From Candidatus Mailhella merdavium (GTDB taxonomy: Bacteria; Desulfobacterota; Desulfovibrionia; Desulfovibrionales; Desulfovibrionaceae): a stretch of DNA of 64,000 bases. Numbering within the stretch: the stretch's first letter is position 1; each line of letters begins with the position of its first letter. Location: NCBI GenBank assembly GCA_019119045.1, contig DWXS01000009.1, forward strand, positions 1 to 64,000, given 5' to 3'. The notes beneath the pieces are model-generated. The model had not been told where the DNA came from. It was given only the letters and a program-made list of their open reading frames with translations, and did no database searches. This document shows, piece by piece, positions 1 to 8,003 of the stretch. A program made the position numbers and the translations under genes.

Positions 1-180
1 GGGTAGTGTATTAAAGTCGCCCTTTTTTAAGGATACGGCGGTATCGGGGAGGTATCGCCATGTCCTTTTTCTATATCGCCATATCTTTTAGCTTATCAAA
101 AAAAGCCCGACCGCCGCCGGGAACACTTCTACCCTCATATATGAACTGTCAAATCATCTAAATACCGCTTACAATTCCTT

Positions 181-221
181 TGCGCTTGTCTGCATCTTGC
201 AGACAGGCGCATTTTGCATTT
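181..221 (+). terminator. Leader hairpin / possible attenuator
   Basis: A 14-bp stem (arms 181-194 and 198-211, one G-T pair) with a 3-base loop is followed by TTTTGCATTTT. It lies upstream of the sigma-like gene. In Tn916-type elements such leader hairpins act as transcription attenuators, but that role is inferred here. Otherwise I see no gene in 1-336. Confidence 0.5.
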
Positions 222-336
222 TCGGGAGGTTTTTTCAAAAAAGTTTCGCTTTCATTCGGCGTTTGAAAAAATCGCCTGTATTATCCCGCGAAAAGGGGAG
301 GTACCGCCACCTTTCAACACGAAAGGAGGTGAGAAC

Positions 337-777
337 ATGGAACCTAATCGCGTGGAATTTCAGAAGCAATGTATCTTTCAAAGTTTCTGTAAACGGGTGC
401 TGCACAACGAAGCCTGCAACGCCCACGAGGAAATCCGGCGTCGCAGAGCAAAGGAAGTGTCGTTTTCCGACCTTGCCTTGCATGAGGAACGACAGCTTTA
501 TACGCTTGATAAGTATTTTCAAGACGAAGAAGCCGAGCCGAGCTATCAGCAGGCAGGAAAGAAAATCACGCCGAAGCTGCTGCTTGAAGCAATCCGCACT
601 TTGCCGGAAGAAAAAAGGTAAGCTATCATGCTGTACTATTTCGAGGGCATGACCGACGTGGAGATTGGAAAGTTATTCAATACGTCGCGCAGCACGATAC
701 AGTACAGACGGACAAGCTCTTTTGAAATCTTGAAGAAATATTTGGAGGAACACGCTGATGAATGGGACGAATGGTAA
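337..777 (+). pseudogene. Sigma-70-like regulator of a Tn916/Tn1549-type element, broken by an in-frame TAA
   Basis: The start ATG at 337 has a strong ribosome binding site (AAAGGAGGTGAGAAC). The frame encodes a short sigma-factor-like protein that ends at TAA 619-621 after LPEEKR. The same frame continues immediately as AIMLYYFEGMTDVEIGKLF and QYRRTSSFEILKKYLEEH, a typical sigma region-4 helix-turn-helix, to TAA 775-777. The intact product would be about 146 residues, the usual size for the small sigma-like regulator near xis/int in Tn916-family elements. One base change would restore it. I therefore read it as a nonsense mutant. A true short protein, restart at ATG 628, or a sequencing error are alternatives. 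Confidence 0.75.
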
Positions 778-1015
778 ACAATCTGACTTCCCGGACGTTG
801 CCCTTGTTCCCTATCCTGTCATTGTGGCAGCGACAAAGGGCGACCCGGACGCTATGAAAATTGTCTTGCAGCATTTTAGTGGTTACATAGCGAGCCTTTC
901 CATGCGGAAGCTCTGCGACGAGCACGGAAACGTCTATTTTGGCGTTGACGAGGATATTCGCCAACGGCTGCAAGCAAGACTAATGAGGGCAATCCTCACA
1001 TTTAGGGTTGAATAA
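758..1015 (+). CDS. Small helix-turn-helix protein of the conjugative transposon (Tn916 Orf8-like)
   Basis: This 85-residue protein overlaps the last 20 bases of the sigma-like frame. It contains VIVAATKGDPDAMKIVLQHF followed by YIASLSMRKL, DEHGN and a C-terminal ILTF, the pattern of the HTH_16-type proteins that accompany the sigma-like gene in Tn916/Tn1549 elements. The role is presumed regulatory within the element. The overlap suggests translational coupling to the upstream gene, so the upstream nonsense codon may also lower its expression. Recognition is by family pattern only. Confidence 0.7.
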   Translation: MNGTNGKQSDFPDVALVPYPVIVAATKGDPDAMKIVLQHFSGYIASLSMRKLCDEHGNVYFGVDEDIRQRLQARLMRAILTFRVE

Positions 1016-1442
1016 CTGCACCGATACCGAAACGTCTTAACCCCTTTTCCGTTTCGTATCAATCCGCAGCAGCCCCGTATGTTCCTTGACAAAGAAAGCG
1101 ACGCAAGATAACGGCGACGCAGTATAGGGCAAACCGGGTACGTCCTTTTTGCGCCGAGCCATACGGAGGGTGCGCCATGACGCTATTCCTCTATCGGGAA
1201 AAGCCGAGTGAGAAACACCGCGACGGGAAGCAAGTTAGCAGCTTGCGGGCGACAACACGCATTGAGGGGAGATAAGCCTTTACAGCCACAGTCCGAGCGT
1301 TCAGAGCGTCGCAGGCAATGGGTAAAGCTGCCTTAAATGAGCAGGGGTGCAATTCCCGCGAGGTTGTGCTAACAGCCGCCCGGTTAAAGCCCACTTTTTG
1401 TAACTTGACTTTTTAGCCATTTATGAAAGGGGGTATTTTCCT
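1016..1442. other. Intergenic stretch before xis with one possible tiny ORF
   Basis: There is no convincing gene of normal size here. A 32-codon frame at 1177-1275 on the plus strand (MTLFLYREK start) has a usable ribosome binding site (GGAGGGTGCGCC) but no recognisable motif. The minus-strand ORF in the track at 1191-1394 has no supporting signal. This spacing between the Orf8-like gene and xis is usual in the family. Confidence 0.4.
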
Positions 1443-1679
1443 ATGGCAAAAAAGGAAACAGCAAGCCCCGCTATCCCTGTATTCCCTATGTTAAAGACCG
1501 TTGAGCAAATGAGCAAGATTAGCGGTATCGGGGAAAATAAACTGCGCGAGCTTATGGATAGTGGCGAGCTTGAATATATACAAAATGGAAACCGTCGTTT
1601 GATAGCTGACGCTGCAATCTGGGACTGGTACCACAGGGCAAAGACGACAGCGAAGCCCCCGGCACGACAGGGAGGTTAA
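1443..1679 (+). CDS. xis: Excisionase (Tn916 Xis-like)
   Basis: This 78-residue protein carries a MerR-like winged helix-turn-helix: MLKTVEQMSKISGIGENKLR followed by LMDSGELEYIQNGNRRLI. That pattern is the DNA-binding fold of Tn916-family excisionases, which bind the element ends and direct the integrase towards excision. GGGGG upstream of ATG serves as a ribosome binding site. The stop is 3 bases before the integrase start, so the two genes form one transcription unit, as in Tn916. Confidence 0.88.
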   Translation: MAKKETASPAIPVFPMLKTVEQMSKISGIGENKLRELMDSGELEYIQNGNRRLIADAAIWDWYHRAKTTAKPPARQGG

Positions 1680-1682
1680 GCT

Positions 1683-2987
1683 ATGGCTATATCAACAAGG
1701 CAGGTTAAGAATAAACGCGACAGCAACGGCGTACTGACCGGGCGGCCGGGTACAGTTTACGACGTGAATATAAAGTACACCGCCCCGAATGGGGAAAAGA
1801 AAACCTATTCAAAAAAGGGCTTTCCAACAAAAAAGGAAGCAACGCAGCATGAAGCAGAGATGAAAGCAAAGCTCCATAATCCGGGACAGATTGCGTCTAT
1901 CGCTTCACAGCGGAAACAGACCGTTGCAAGCTATCTGAATGAATGGGTAGAAAGCTATGCAAGAGTGAACTTGCGCCCCTCTACTTACGACGGGTACAAA
2001 AGAACGATTGCAAACTACATCACGCCATATATCGGCGGCGTTGCCCTTAATCAGCTTACCCCCGCTATGGTAGACAAAATGTTTCAGCAGATTATTGACA
2101 AAGGCTTGAAACCGTCCACCGCAGCCGGGGCAAAGCGTGTTTTGAGCGTGGCGTTGAGCCATGCCCGGAAATACCGCTATATCGAAACAAACGCAGCAAA
2201 GGACACGCTTACGAAGTTTGGAAAGAGCGACAAGACCCCCGACCCGTACACGCCGGAACAGGTAAAAGCCCTTATGCAGCGCGTCGAGGGTACCGTTTGG
2301 GAAATGCCCGTTATCTTAGGCGGGCTTTACGGTATGCGCCGTTCTGAAATCCTGGGCTTGCGTTGGCGCAATGTGGATTTGGAAAACAACACCTTTGACG
2401 TTTCCGAGCAGCTACCCTTTAAGGTACCGCCAAAAACAAAAGTCATTGAGGAAATGGCACCGCCGAAATCCAACGGGCGAAAGCTGCCTATCACAGAGCT
2501 TGCCCGCCCGTTCTTTCTCAAACAGTTTGCTATGCAGGAAGCGCAGCGCGAACAGGCAGAAAAGGACGGAAAGCCTTACTATGACAATGACCTTGTTGTA
2601 GCGAAGCCGGACGGTTCCCCTATCTCCGCGTCGTGGGTATCTTCCCAGTTTGGAAAGCTGCTTGAAGATTTGGATATGCCGCATATCCGCTTTCACGATT
2701 TGCGCCATACAGCAGCTACAAATATGCACCAACTGACAGGCGACTTCTACACCGTAGGCGAAGTGTTAGGACATACACTTGCGGGTATCGGCGTATCGCT
2801 TGGGCTGTCTATGAACTTTGAAGCTGTTACCGCCCGTTATGTGGACGTGCGGCTTGAACGCAAAAAAGAAGTCTTAGACGCTTATCATGGGGCGGTCAAA
2901 CAGGCAGACCCGGCAAAGGCAGAGAAAGCCGAGCCGAAGAAAGCAAAGAGCGCGGCAAAGAAAAAGAGCAGCGATTTAGAGCTTTAA
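1683..2987 (+). CDS. int: Tyrosine recombinase / integrase (Tn916/Tn1549 type)
   Basis: This 434-residue site-specific recombinase integrates and excises the conjugative transposon. The N-terminal part (about 1-70, with YTAPNGEKKTYSKKGFPTKKEA) resembles the arm-binding AP2-like domain. A SAM-like core-binding domain follows (about 75-165, SYLNEWVESYARVNLRPSTY). The catalytic domain shows GMRRSEILGLRW (first Arg), FHDLRHTAAT (His-x-x-Arg), LGHT and ARYVDV (nucleophilic Tyr). The C-terminal tail is rich in Lys and Ala. The stop lies near the element end, as expected for Tn916-like elements, and arm-type repeats lie just downstream. Confidence 0.93.
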   Translation: MAISTRQVKNKRDSNGVLTGRPGTVYDVNIKYTAPNGEKKTYSKKGFPTKKEATQHEAEMKAKLHNPGQIASIASQRKQTVASYLNEWVESYARVNLRPSTYDGYKRTIANYITPYIGGVALNQLTPAMVDKMFQQIIDKGLKPSTAAGAKRVLSVALSHARKYRYIETNAAKDTLTKFGKSDKTPDPYTPEQVKALMQRVEGTVWEMPVILGGLYGMRRSEILGLRWRNVDLENNTFDVSEQLPFKVPPKTKVIEEMAPPKSNGRKLPITELARPFFLKQFAMQEAQREQAEKDGKPYYDNDLVVAKPDGSPISASWVSSQFGKLLEDLDMPHIRFHDLRHTAATNMHQLTGDFYTVGEVLGHTLAGIGVSLGLSMNFEAVTARYVDVRLERKKEVLDAYHGAVKQADPAKAEKAEPKKAKSAAKKKSSDLEL

Positions 2988-3038
2988 CCGCTGTATCTCT
3001 TTACCGCTTCTTATATCGTTTTATAGCCCCGCGTGGGA

Positions 3039-3060
3039 TTTGGGCACCATTTGGGCACCA
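3039..3060. repeat. Tandem 11-bp direct repeats, likely integrase arm-type sites
   Basis: TTTGGGCACCA occurs twice back to back, between the int stop and the element end. Tn916-family integrases bind short direct repeats (DR2-like) near each end, so this is the probable arm site. The role is inferred from position. Confidence 0.6.
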
Positions 3061-3097
3061 TTTACCGAAAAAGCACCACTAACACAGGCGATAAAAG

Positions 3098-3150
3098 AAA
3101 CGCCGAGAACGCGCAAAAACATAGAGTTTATGCGGGTTTCCGGCGTTTTC
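3098..3150 (+). terminator. Probable terminator downstream of int
   Basis: AACGCCG and CGGCGTT flank a roughly 35-base interval that itself contains a short CGCA/TGCG pairing, followed by TTTTC. It sits after int, before the element junction. Confidence 0.45.
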
Positions 3151-3189
3151 TAATCCCTCAACCGACCTAAAATCATCTTGCGGCAGAGA

Positions 3190-3212
3190 GAAAAATTCTA
3201 CTATTTTTTATT
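3190..3212. other. Approximate right junction of the Tn916/Tn1549-type element with the chromosome
   Basis: The AT-rich AAATTCTACTATTTTTTATT stretch is followed directly by sequence encoding an internal part of an AraC regulator. Tn916-type elements insert into AT-rich targets with short variable coupling sequences. The exact base cannot be fixed without the empty site. Confidence 0.6.
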
Positions 3213-3802
3213 TGGATACCAAGCTGATTACAGACCTTTCTATGGAGATGCATCAGGAATCCACATCTAAAAATATGGAGTGCGAAGGGGTTACGATTTC
3301 TGATACAGATGTGGAATTGCTTGATGTCGTTCTGCGTTTGCTCAATCTACTTGACAAACCTGAACAGATTCCCATCCGTGCGCCCATGCTCCTACGCGAC
3401 CTGCATTATTTTCTTTTACTTGGCCCATTTGGGAAACTTCTGCGTCAGGTGAATACATTAGGGACACAGAATAATCAGATAGTGCAAATTATTGCATGGC
3501 TGCGCCAAAATTTGGCGCAGCCTGTGCGGGTGGATGAACTGGCACAAAGAGTGAATATGTCCACAGCCACTCTTTATCGCCATTTCAAGAATCTTACAGG
3601 TCTTAGTCCCCTACAGTATATTAAGCACCTCCGTTTACATGAAGCACAACGCTTGATGCTGTTGGAAAATGAGAGGGCTTCCAGCGCAGCTTTGGCTGTG
3701 GGATATGAGAGTATAACGCAGTTCAACCGAGAATATAAGAGTATGTTTGGGGAACCTCCGTATAGAGATGTATCCCAGCGTCGCGAGAATCTTCTCGGTT
3801 GA
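3212..3802 (+). pseudogene. AraC-family regulator, 5' part lost to the mobile element
   Basis: The frame opens at TTG 3212, directly at the element end, and has no ribosome binding site. It encodes 196 residues: the last part of an AraC N-terminal sensory domain (RAPMLLRDLHYFLLLGPFG) and a complete double HTH (RVDELAQRVNMSTATLYRHF, LSPLQYIKHLRLHEA, SAALAVGYESITQFNREYK). Full members of this group are about 300 residues, so roughly 100 N-terminal residues and the promoter are missing. These regulators commonly control alcohol dehydrogenase, flavodoxin and SDR genes such as those downstream. The gene is probably inactivated by insertion; expression from a promoter inside the element cannot be excluded. 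Confidence 0.8.
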
Positions 3803-3836: not shown

Positions 3837-4703
3837 CTACTGTTCCGGAACCACGTCATTGACGCAGGCAAGCGCATTCAGGGTACGTGGGAATCCGATG
3901 TATGGCAGACTCTGCGCCAGGGCATCAACCAGATTTTGCTTGCTGTTGCCTACATTGATATTGCCCTGCACATGGCTTTTGACTTGGCTTTCACATCCTC
4001 CGAGCGCGCTGATTGCCGAGAAAATGAGAAGTTCCCGCGTCTTGGCGTCCAGCCCCTTGCGGGTAAATATGTCGCCAAAGCAAAAGGCGGAGAGATAATT
4101 GATGATGATTTCCTTCTGCCCGGCAGGCGCGGCAGCGTGCATTTTGTCGATGGCATCGCCGAAAGTGGACTTCTGCACCGCCAATCCGTCCGCAAAGCGG
4201 CTCTCTTCCGTTACCGTTGCCTGGCTTTCAACAGGCAGAGGGATGCCCTTTTCGGTGAAAACTCCGTTGACTTGACGGAGAGCGGCCTCAACTTTGGGGA
4301 AGCCGATATACGGAGCGCACTGGTAGAGGGCTTCCTTGATTTCCACGGGGCTGAGTCCGATGCGAAGCGCCGCTTCTGTATGGTTTTTGATGTCATTTGT
4401 GCTTTGGCTGGCGGTAAGAACAACCAGCGTAATCAGCTCGCGTTGCTTGTCGTTCAGGCTTCCCTGCTCGGCAATTTCGCCGTACAGGAACCGATCCCGA
4501 ATGGTCGCAAGATCAGGGTCGGTTTTTGCCAACGGGTCTTGAACGCTTCCAAACAGCTTGTTCATATTTTTTTGGGCCAGGACGGGCCGGGTTGACGGAG
4601 TTGTTTCTCCGCGTTCCGCCGCAAATGAACTGTGTTGCATGAAGAAACCTCCTGTCAGAATGGCAGACAATAGCATCACGGACGCTCTATGGAGAATGGT
4701 CAT
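3837..4703 (-). CDS. Exported carboxymuconolactone decarboxylase (CMD) family protein, two domains
   Basis: A signal peptide (LLSAILTGGFFMQHSSFAA) is followed by two CMD repeats. The first has LYGEIAEQGSLNDKQRELI and HTEAALRIGLSPVEIKEALYQCAPYIGFPK; the second has FCFGDIFTRKGLDAKTRELL, SHVQGNINVG and QSLPYIGFPRTLNAL. The family includes AhpD-like peroxidase partners and decarboxylases; usual Cys pairs are not clearly present, so the substrate is unknown. I chose ATG 4703 (GAGGGAAATA before it) over the track start at 4742. It lies downstream of the cupin/tautomerase/flavoprotein genes on the same strand, but a terminator lies between. Confidence 0.78.
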   Translation of the reverse strand: MTILHRASVMLLSAILTGGFFMQHSSFAAERGETTPSTRPVLAQKNMNKLFGSVQDPLAKTDPDLATIRDRFLYGEIAEQGSLNDKQRELITLVVLTASQSTNDIKNHTEAALRIGLSPVEIKEALYQCAPYIGFPKVEAALRQVNGVFTEKGIPLPVESQATVTEESRFADGLAVQKSTFGDAIDKMHAAAPAGQKEIIINYLSAFCFGDIFTRKGLDAKTRELLIFSAISALGGCESQVKSHVQGNINVGNSKQNLVDALAQSLPYIGFPRTLNALACVNDVVPEQ

Positions 4704-4743
4704 TATTTCCCTCGCTATTCCATATATTTTTGAGAGCATCAAA

Positions 4744-6671: not shown

Positions 6672-7445
6672 CTACGCCCCGACGCCTCCATCCACAGCGT
6701 AATCGGAACCTGTCACAAAACTTGCGGCATCGGAGGCAAGAAAGGCCACAACTGCGGCAACTTCTGCCGGGAGGCCGAATCGTCCAAGAGGCACGGTACG
6801 CTTTACGGCGGCGATATGCTTCTGAGCATCTTCTTCCGACAGTGCCGTCTTTTCGTAAATGGGCGTTTTAATGGGGCCGACACATACCGAATTGACACGG
6901 ATGCCATATTCCGCCCACTCTTTGGCCAGAGCGCGGGTGAATACCTGGATGGACGCCTTGCTCGCAGCATACAGCGTCATGTTTGCCATAGGCTTGCTGA
7001 CAAGGGCTGAAGAAATATTGACAACATTTCCCCGTGCTTCTCTCAGCAAAGGGAAAGCCTGCCTTGTCAAATCCACCACCCCGCGCACATTGACGCTGAA
7101 TACATTGTCGAATTCGTCCATGCTCACTTCAGCCAATGGGCCAACCGGAGCCACTCCGGCATTGTTCACCAGAATATCGAGCTTCCCCCAGTTTTTTTTC
7201 AGCGTCAGAAGAGCCTTTTCAAGCTCTGATGACGATCTGACATCGGCGATAACATATGAAATGTTGTCATGCCGGGCGGTACACTCTTCGAGGACGCTTT
7301 TATCAAGAATGTCAAGGATCATGACTTTTGCGCCTTCATCTGCCAACCGCTTGGCAATAACTTCCCCGATCCCTGAACCGCCGCCGGTGACGAGGGCTAT
7401 TTTGCCCTGAAGACTTGCATTCATGACAGTATCCATCTCCGCCAC
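6672..7445 (-). CDS. Short-chain dehydrogenase/reductase
   Basis: A classical SDR of about 257 residues: nucleotide-binding LVTGGGSGIGE, NNAG motif (LVNNAGVAPVG), catalytic Ser in VNISSAL and YAASK, and the C-terminal DYAVDGGVGA. It should be an NAD(P)H-dependent carbonyl/alcohol oxidoreductase; the substrate is unknown. The GTG start at 7445 has AAGG upstream; ATG codons at 7436 and 7424 are alternatives, the latter giving the family-typical MNASLQGKIALVTG start. It is the last gene before the terminator and begins 6 bases after the flavodoxin stop. Confidence 0.9.
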   Translation of the reverse strand: MAEMDTVMNASLQGKIALVTGGGSGIGEVIAKRLADEGAKVMILDILDKSVLEECTARHDNISYVIADVRSSSELEKALLTLKKNWGKLDILVNNAGVAPVGPLAEVSMDEFDNVFSVNVRGVVDLTRQAFPLLREARGNVVNISSALVSKPMANMTLYAASKASIQVFTRALAKEWAEYGIRVNSVCVGPIKTPIYEKTALSEEDAQKHIAAVKRTVPLGRFGLPAEVAAVVAFLASDAASFVTGSDYAVDGGVGA

Positions 7446-7451
7446 GCTGCC

Positions 7452-7931
7452 TTATTTTTTCAGAGTTTTTACCCATTCCGCCAGTTCGGCGGAGGACGCT
7501 CCGCTCTTCAGGCGTTTACCTTCCAGCCAATGGGCGGCGGGGCAGGTCTTCTTGAGAACCGCACCGGTATTGCCCATACCGCTGCCGCCTGAAGTGGCAA
7601 AGGGAATTACCGTTTTGCCGGAGAAATCATAGCTCTCCAAAAAGGTATGTATGATGCGCGGAGCCTCATACCACCAGATGGGAAAGCCGACAAAAACAGT
7701 CTGATAGCGTTCCATCCCATCAACGCGGTTGGCGATGGCGGGGCGGGAAGACGGGTCATTCATTTCAAGGCTGCTGCGACTGCCCTTGTTGTTTCAGTCC
7801 AGATCGGCGGCAGTGTAGGCTTGTTCTGGTCGCATTTCATAACAATCGCCGTTGACCACCTTTGCAAGCGTTTTCGCCAGGCGGGCGGTTTGGCCGCTGG
7901 CGGAAAAATACGCTACCAATGTTTCGCTCAT
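7452..7931 (-). pseudogene. Flavodoxin gene interrupted by an in-frame TGA
   Basis: ATG 7931 (AAAAGGAGA upstream) starts a flavodoxin: MSETLVAYFSASGQTARLAK, then YTAADLD, then TGA at 7796-7794. Translation continues in the same frame as NNKGSRSSLEMNDPSSRPAI, GFPIWWYEAPRIIHTFLESY and PFATSGGSGMG to 7452. In this flavodoxin group the stop position is normally Trp (LDWNN), so a TGG-to-TGA change explains it. Intact length would be about 159 residues. The second half has an ATG at 7763 but no good ribosome binding site and lacks the FMN phosphate loop, so it is unlikely to work alone. Confidence 0.8.
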
Positions 7932-8003
7932 GACAGGTTCTCCTTTTGACGACATTTCAAATTGGAATGGCTCTGGTGTCATACATACGGACAATATGAG
8001 CAG

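Follow-up and report, generated by a model that had tools for sequence, protein, structure and literature searches.

Probable insertion of a Firmicutes-type conjugative element into an AraC-family regulator gene of Candidatus Mailhella merdavium

The window, by which we mean the whole stretch of 64,000 nucleotides analysed here, spans the first 64 kb of the 101-kb contig C44 in a 3.0-Mb draft genome of Candidatus Mailhella merdavium that consists of 91 contigs and is 87.8% complete. The contig begins within a mobile element, a conjugative element of Firmicutes, whose integrase end occupies positions 1-3211 (plus strand). All genes of this end lie on the plus strand. They encode a sigma-like regulator (337-621), an HTH_16 regulator of the Tn916-family type (758-1015; PF12645, 1.4e-27), an excisionase-like protein preceding the integrase gene (1443-1679; TIGR01764 4.6e-05 and HTH_17 2.1e-05, both weak matches under the curated cut-off) and a tyrosine integrase of 434 amino acids (1683-2987; PF00589 5.5e-15, PF14657, PF14659). 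The sigma-like gene is truncated by a TAA codon at 619-621, whereas in three Firmicutes copies base 619 is different and the frame continues; this nonsense codon might keep the element in place. The integrase shares 100% amino acid identity over all 434 residues with several Firmicutes copies from public genomes. A terminator-like hairpin 3′ of the integrase gene (3097-3153, plus strand) is preserved among element copies and retained even in diverged ones, and the segment 3085-3165 has a folding energy of -32.4 kcal/mol (z -5.8). A simple terminator scan did not list this hairpin; it probably ends transcription coming from the element. An integrase and an excisionase-like gene at one end, with sigma-like and HTH_16 regulators upstream, is the arrangement of Tn916/Tn1549 elements in the broad sense, the excisionase match being weak.

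Directly after the element lies the 3′ remnant of an AraC-family regulator gene (3212-3802, plus strand). AraC_N-type AraC/XylS regulators are recognized by PF06719 together with HTH_18, and both are present here, of PF06719 just profile positions 79-149 of 150, that is, the C-terminal half of AraC_N. HTH_18 is nearly full (PF12833, 1-74), and the HTH domain is intact. Convergent with the remnant is a gene of the carboxymuconolactone decarboxylase (CMD) family (3837-4742, minus strand; PF02627, 4e-37), and the neighbouring island comprises putative redox genes (flavodoxin, cupin, SDR and alcohol dehydrogenase, the last of which we take to resemble E. coli YqhD).

The boundary between element and host could be placed to the base. 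We gathered integrase copies from public genomes and found that the right ends of more than 20 element copies have ...TTCTACTA-TTTTTTAT in common (3196-3211 in the window), directly after which the sequences diverge; since the flanks differ from copy to copy, the terminus is fixed. It consists of CTACTA and an 8-bp core, TTTTTTAT (3198-3211 on the plus strand, core 3204-3211), which represents the right attachment core. Comparison of copies in Anaerostipes, Pseudoruminococcus and Oscillibacter gave TTTTTTAT-TGATTTGATAGACG as the left end, so that both ends of the element carry the core. Full copies measure 48.9 kb in Anaerostipes and 41.7 kb in Pseudoruminococcus, and a shorter copy in Oscillibacter 11 kb. 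Host sequence starts at 3212 with TTG, the first codon of a 196-codon AraC frame. The end of the element and the break in the AraC gene thus agree at 3211/3212, as expected from the earlier note, which had proposed an insertion inside an AraC regulator gene.

The break lies within a T-rich motif, (F/L)Y|LD, that is conserved in AraC homologues, and the window reads IFY|LD over the junction. In a set of 27 homologues, the octamer that precedes the break point matches TTTTTTAT at 4.6 of 8 positions on average, against a background of 1.7 within their own genes. One homologue from the same genus matches at all eight, reading exactly TTTTTTAT|CTGGAT. Judged from these sequences, this is the kind of site that would be chosen by an integrase acting on matching T-rich cores.

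Intact homologues from the genus and family total mostly 303-316 amino acids, with 107-110 residues ahead of the equivalent break point. About 108 N-terminal residues are therefore missing from the visible gene, in line with the roughly 100 suggested before, and the promoter and start codon are lost as well. The same comparison speaks against the possibility, named in the earlier note, that complete homologues have only about 196 residues. That note had also described a frame starting abruptly at the element end without a ribosome binding site. The frame is in fact open back into the element to about 3125 (225 codons), with no in-frame ATG, GTG or TTG before 3212, and neither TTG 3212 nor the following ATGs are preceded by a suitably spaced Shine-Dalgarno sequence. 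A null or loss-of-function allele is the most likely outcome, expected because no start has a ribosome-binding site and because the conserved terminator-like hairpin would shield the remnant. An internal ATG may nevertheless serve as a start within the remnant. It is unlikely, in our estimation, that read-through or such an internal start yields an unregulated DNA-binding protein of the MarA/SoxS kind that keeps the island constitutively on. The intact frame and HTH domain, a match to single-domain structures of the MarA/SoxS type, and transcription of the integrase gene in the same direction would all suit such a protein, but it would have to be made without a start codon that has a ribosome-binding site and from behind the hairpin.

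In eight relatives an intact AraC gene stands tail to tail with the CMD gene, either adjoining it or separated from it by a single flavodoxin gene. This conserved pairing supports, though it does not prove, the link between regulator and redox island that had been suggested from the window. Deregulation of the adjacent genes, which the earlier note considered possible, is conjectural, and four further full-length AraC_N genes occur in the host genome (on contigs C26, C38, C55 and C68; 43-62% identical) and could substitute for the broken regulator. Effects on the flavodoxin/cupin/SDR/ADH island are probably partial, because these four paralogues remain. A flavodoxin gene of the island (7452-7994, minus strand) contains an in-frame TGA at 7794-7796, where the paralogue on C68 has tryptophan; this is either a second sign of decay of the island or a consensus error.

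The insertion inside the gene stands, whereas a search of the whole draft assembly did not recover the missing 5′ part; the gene may be split, as the earlier note had it, or may have lost its 5′ end. Both the PF06719 profile and the 109 N-terminal residues of the intact homologue from one relative (G021) retrieved four complete paralogues only. Other parts of the element were equally absent from the assembly. The 14-base terminus pattern occurred in the host genome as a right end only, with no left end; the 726-bp left end of the Anaerostipes copy had no significant match in the 91 contigs; and the CD1110-family VirB4 of the element was not found. In draft genomes, such missing parts are common with repeated elements. 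A deletion may also have occurred at the insertion.

The core also bears on whether the insertion could be undone. Excision would rejoin TTTTTTAT in frame and restore the regulator, leaving a mixed population. The core is identical at both ends of full copies and in frame with the FY|LD codons of the homologues, and the integrase is 100% identical to that of other copies. Nevertheless we regard a reversible insertion as doubtful: the nonsense codon at 619-621 may lower excision, an empty arrangement was not present in the host assembly, and conjugation genes were not found there. Further-reaching, and less probable still, is the idea that in a new phylum the element reversibly switches a redox regulator, targeting a core-like motif and restoring the frame by seamless excision. 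On this view, protein constraint maintains the core-like target motif in some members of the AraC_N family.

The sequence upstream of the junction is nearly identical to copies in Firmicutes. Aligned over 3206-3211 bases, window positions 1-3211 share 99.72-99.78% identity with the copies in Anaerostipes 992a, Oscillibacter ER4 and Firmicutes UBA1702, which corresponds to 7-9 differing positions in the 3.2 kb of element. The serS gene of this contig shows 93% identity to that of a genus member, and DsrA of the host genome has its closest match in 2v4j, presumably the protein of D. vulgaris. By this evidence the contig is apparently chromosomal Desulfovibrionaceae DNA. It is very improbable that the junction is an artefact of metagenome assembly, with the element stemming from a co-resident Firmicute. 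Such errors might be suspected in a draft of 91 contigs where a contig begins inside a repeat common to Firmicutes; the join, however, coincides exactly with the element terminus, intact homologues show a matching target sequence at this point, 98 kb more follow on the same contig with serS at 93% to the genus, and on two other contigs related element ends are likewise linked to host-type genes.

None of 198 other sampled genomes of the family Desulfovibrionaceae contained the integrase. For the right end of the element, matches in plasmids were more distant relatives only, and none was found in E. coli. The proposal of a recent transfer from Firmicutes has thus held up, and recent passage of the element across phyla is well supported by sequence comparison, the direction from Firmicutes to Desulfovibrionaceae following from where copies occur. 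In a survey of gut mobile elements, no cluster of conjugative elements was seen to span two or more phyla (PMC6907783). Against this pattern, 3.2 kb with an intact, identical integrase and a base-exact junction are found in both Firmicutes and a Desulfovibrionaceae chromosome, which shows that the element is capable of integrating in a Gram-negative sulfate reducer. The gene disruption is of an ordinary kind, and so is its local consequence, in which one of five AraC_N regulators is lost; as an instance of such an element crossing phyla, however, it is unusually clear and recent. An integrase 77% identical was seen in a Treponema MAG, another possible cross-phylum case.

Other mobile elements are present in the window and in the host genome. 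At 13191-51834 a conjugative element adjoins the island; it has type IVB secretion genes (DotH, DotI and a T4SS TraI-like protein) besides those for a relaxase/RepB primase and a topoisomerase III, and no integrase was seen in it. In the two nearest genus members synteny left of serS is lost, and an empty site of this 13-52 kb element is therefore not shown. Two different Firmicutes-type element ends occur on contigs C55 (1-3154 of locus L137) and C26 (26736-27037, which is 6736-7037 of locus L139), with 75-76% identity to window positions 92-1398. The C55 end, which encodes a large serine recombinase, is situated about 2.4 kb from another flavodoxin/MBL/AraC island; in the gut survey, serine integrases of ICEs were seen only in Firmicutes (PMC6907783).

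Taken together, we consider it very probable that a recent conjugative element from Firmicutes recombined its core into an AraC_N regulator gene and left a loss-of-function allele. A CTn4-like element belonging to the wider Tn916/Tn1549 family, lately resident in gut Firmicutes, would have entered a Desulfovibrionaceae cell. Its tyrosine integrase would then have recombined the 8-bp core TTTTTTAT of the circular form with the matching T-rich stretch at the FY|LD codons of the AraC_N-type gene, a site indicated by the exact terminus and the homologue sequences. Lacking a usable start and lying behind the terminator-like hairpin, the remnant would most likely give no protein, and the redox island would probably be affected in part, the four paralogues staying.

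In its gene content the element end resembles Tn1549 and the CTn4-like elements of C. difficile, whose right end likewise combines a tyrosine integrase and an excisionase-like gene with HTH_16 and sigma-like regulators. A CD1110-family VirB4 is encoded by the Anaerostipes copy, which is 99.8% identical at its right end, and full-length copies carry this VirB4 together with a CD1107-like protein; both names come from genes of C. difficile element CTn4 (PMC3158075). In contrast, the integrase is only distantly related to Tn1549 Int (6emy; phmmer 30 bits, E 2e-6). Tn916 likewise has a tyrosine recombinase that uses many AT-rich targets and can insert within genes, with the target consensus TTTTTA[AT]4AAAAA (PMC12084037). 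Whereas that motif consists of a T-run, about 6 bp and an A-run, the present element has a single TTTTTTAT core, and none of 20 right flanks showed an A-run after it. The label Tn916/Tn1549-type given in the earlier note thus suits the regulators and the VirB4 of full copies, but not the integrase and target core, and the element is best placed in the wider Tn916/Tn1549 (CTn4-like) family, not with Tn916 or Tn1549 proper. On the side of the host gene, the closest parallel we considered is the YqhC-type of AraC regulators (E. coli yqhC/yqhD), with AraC_N and HTH domains and redox enzymes nearby, as here. Mutations in the N-terminal region of yqhC increase yqhD expression (PMC8262776), so both loss and gain of function are conceivable in the present case. 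The Mailhella regulator differs in belonging to another phylum, and its targets are putative.
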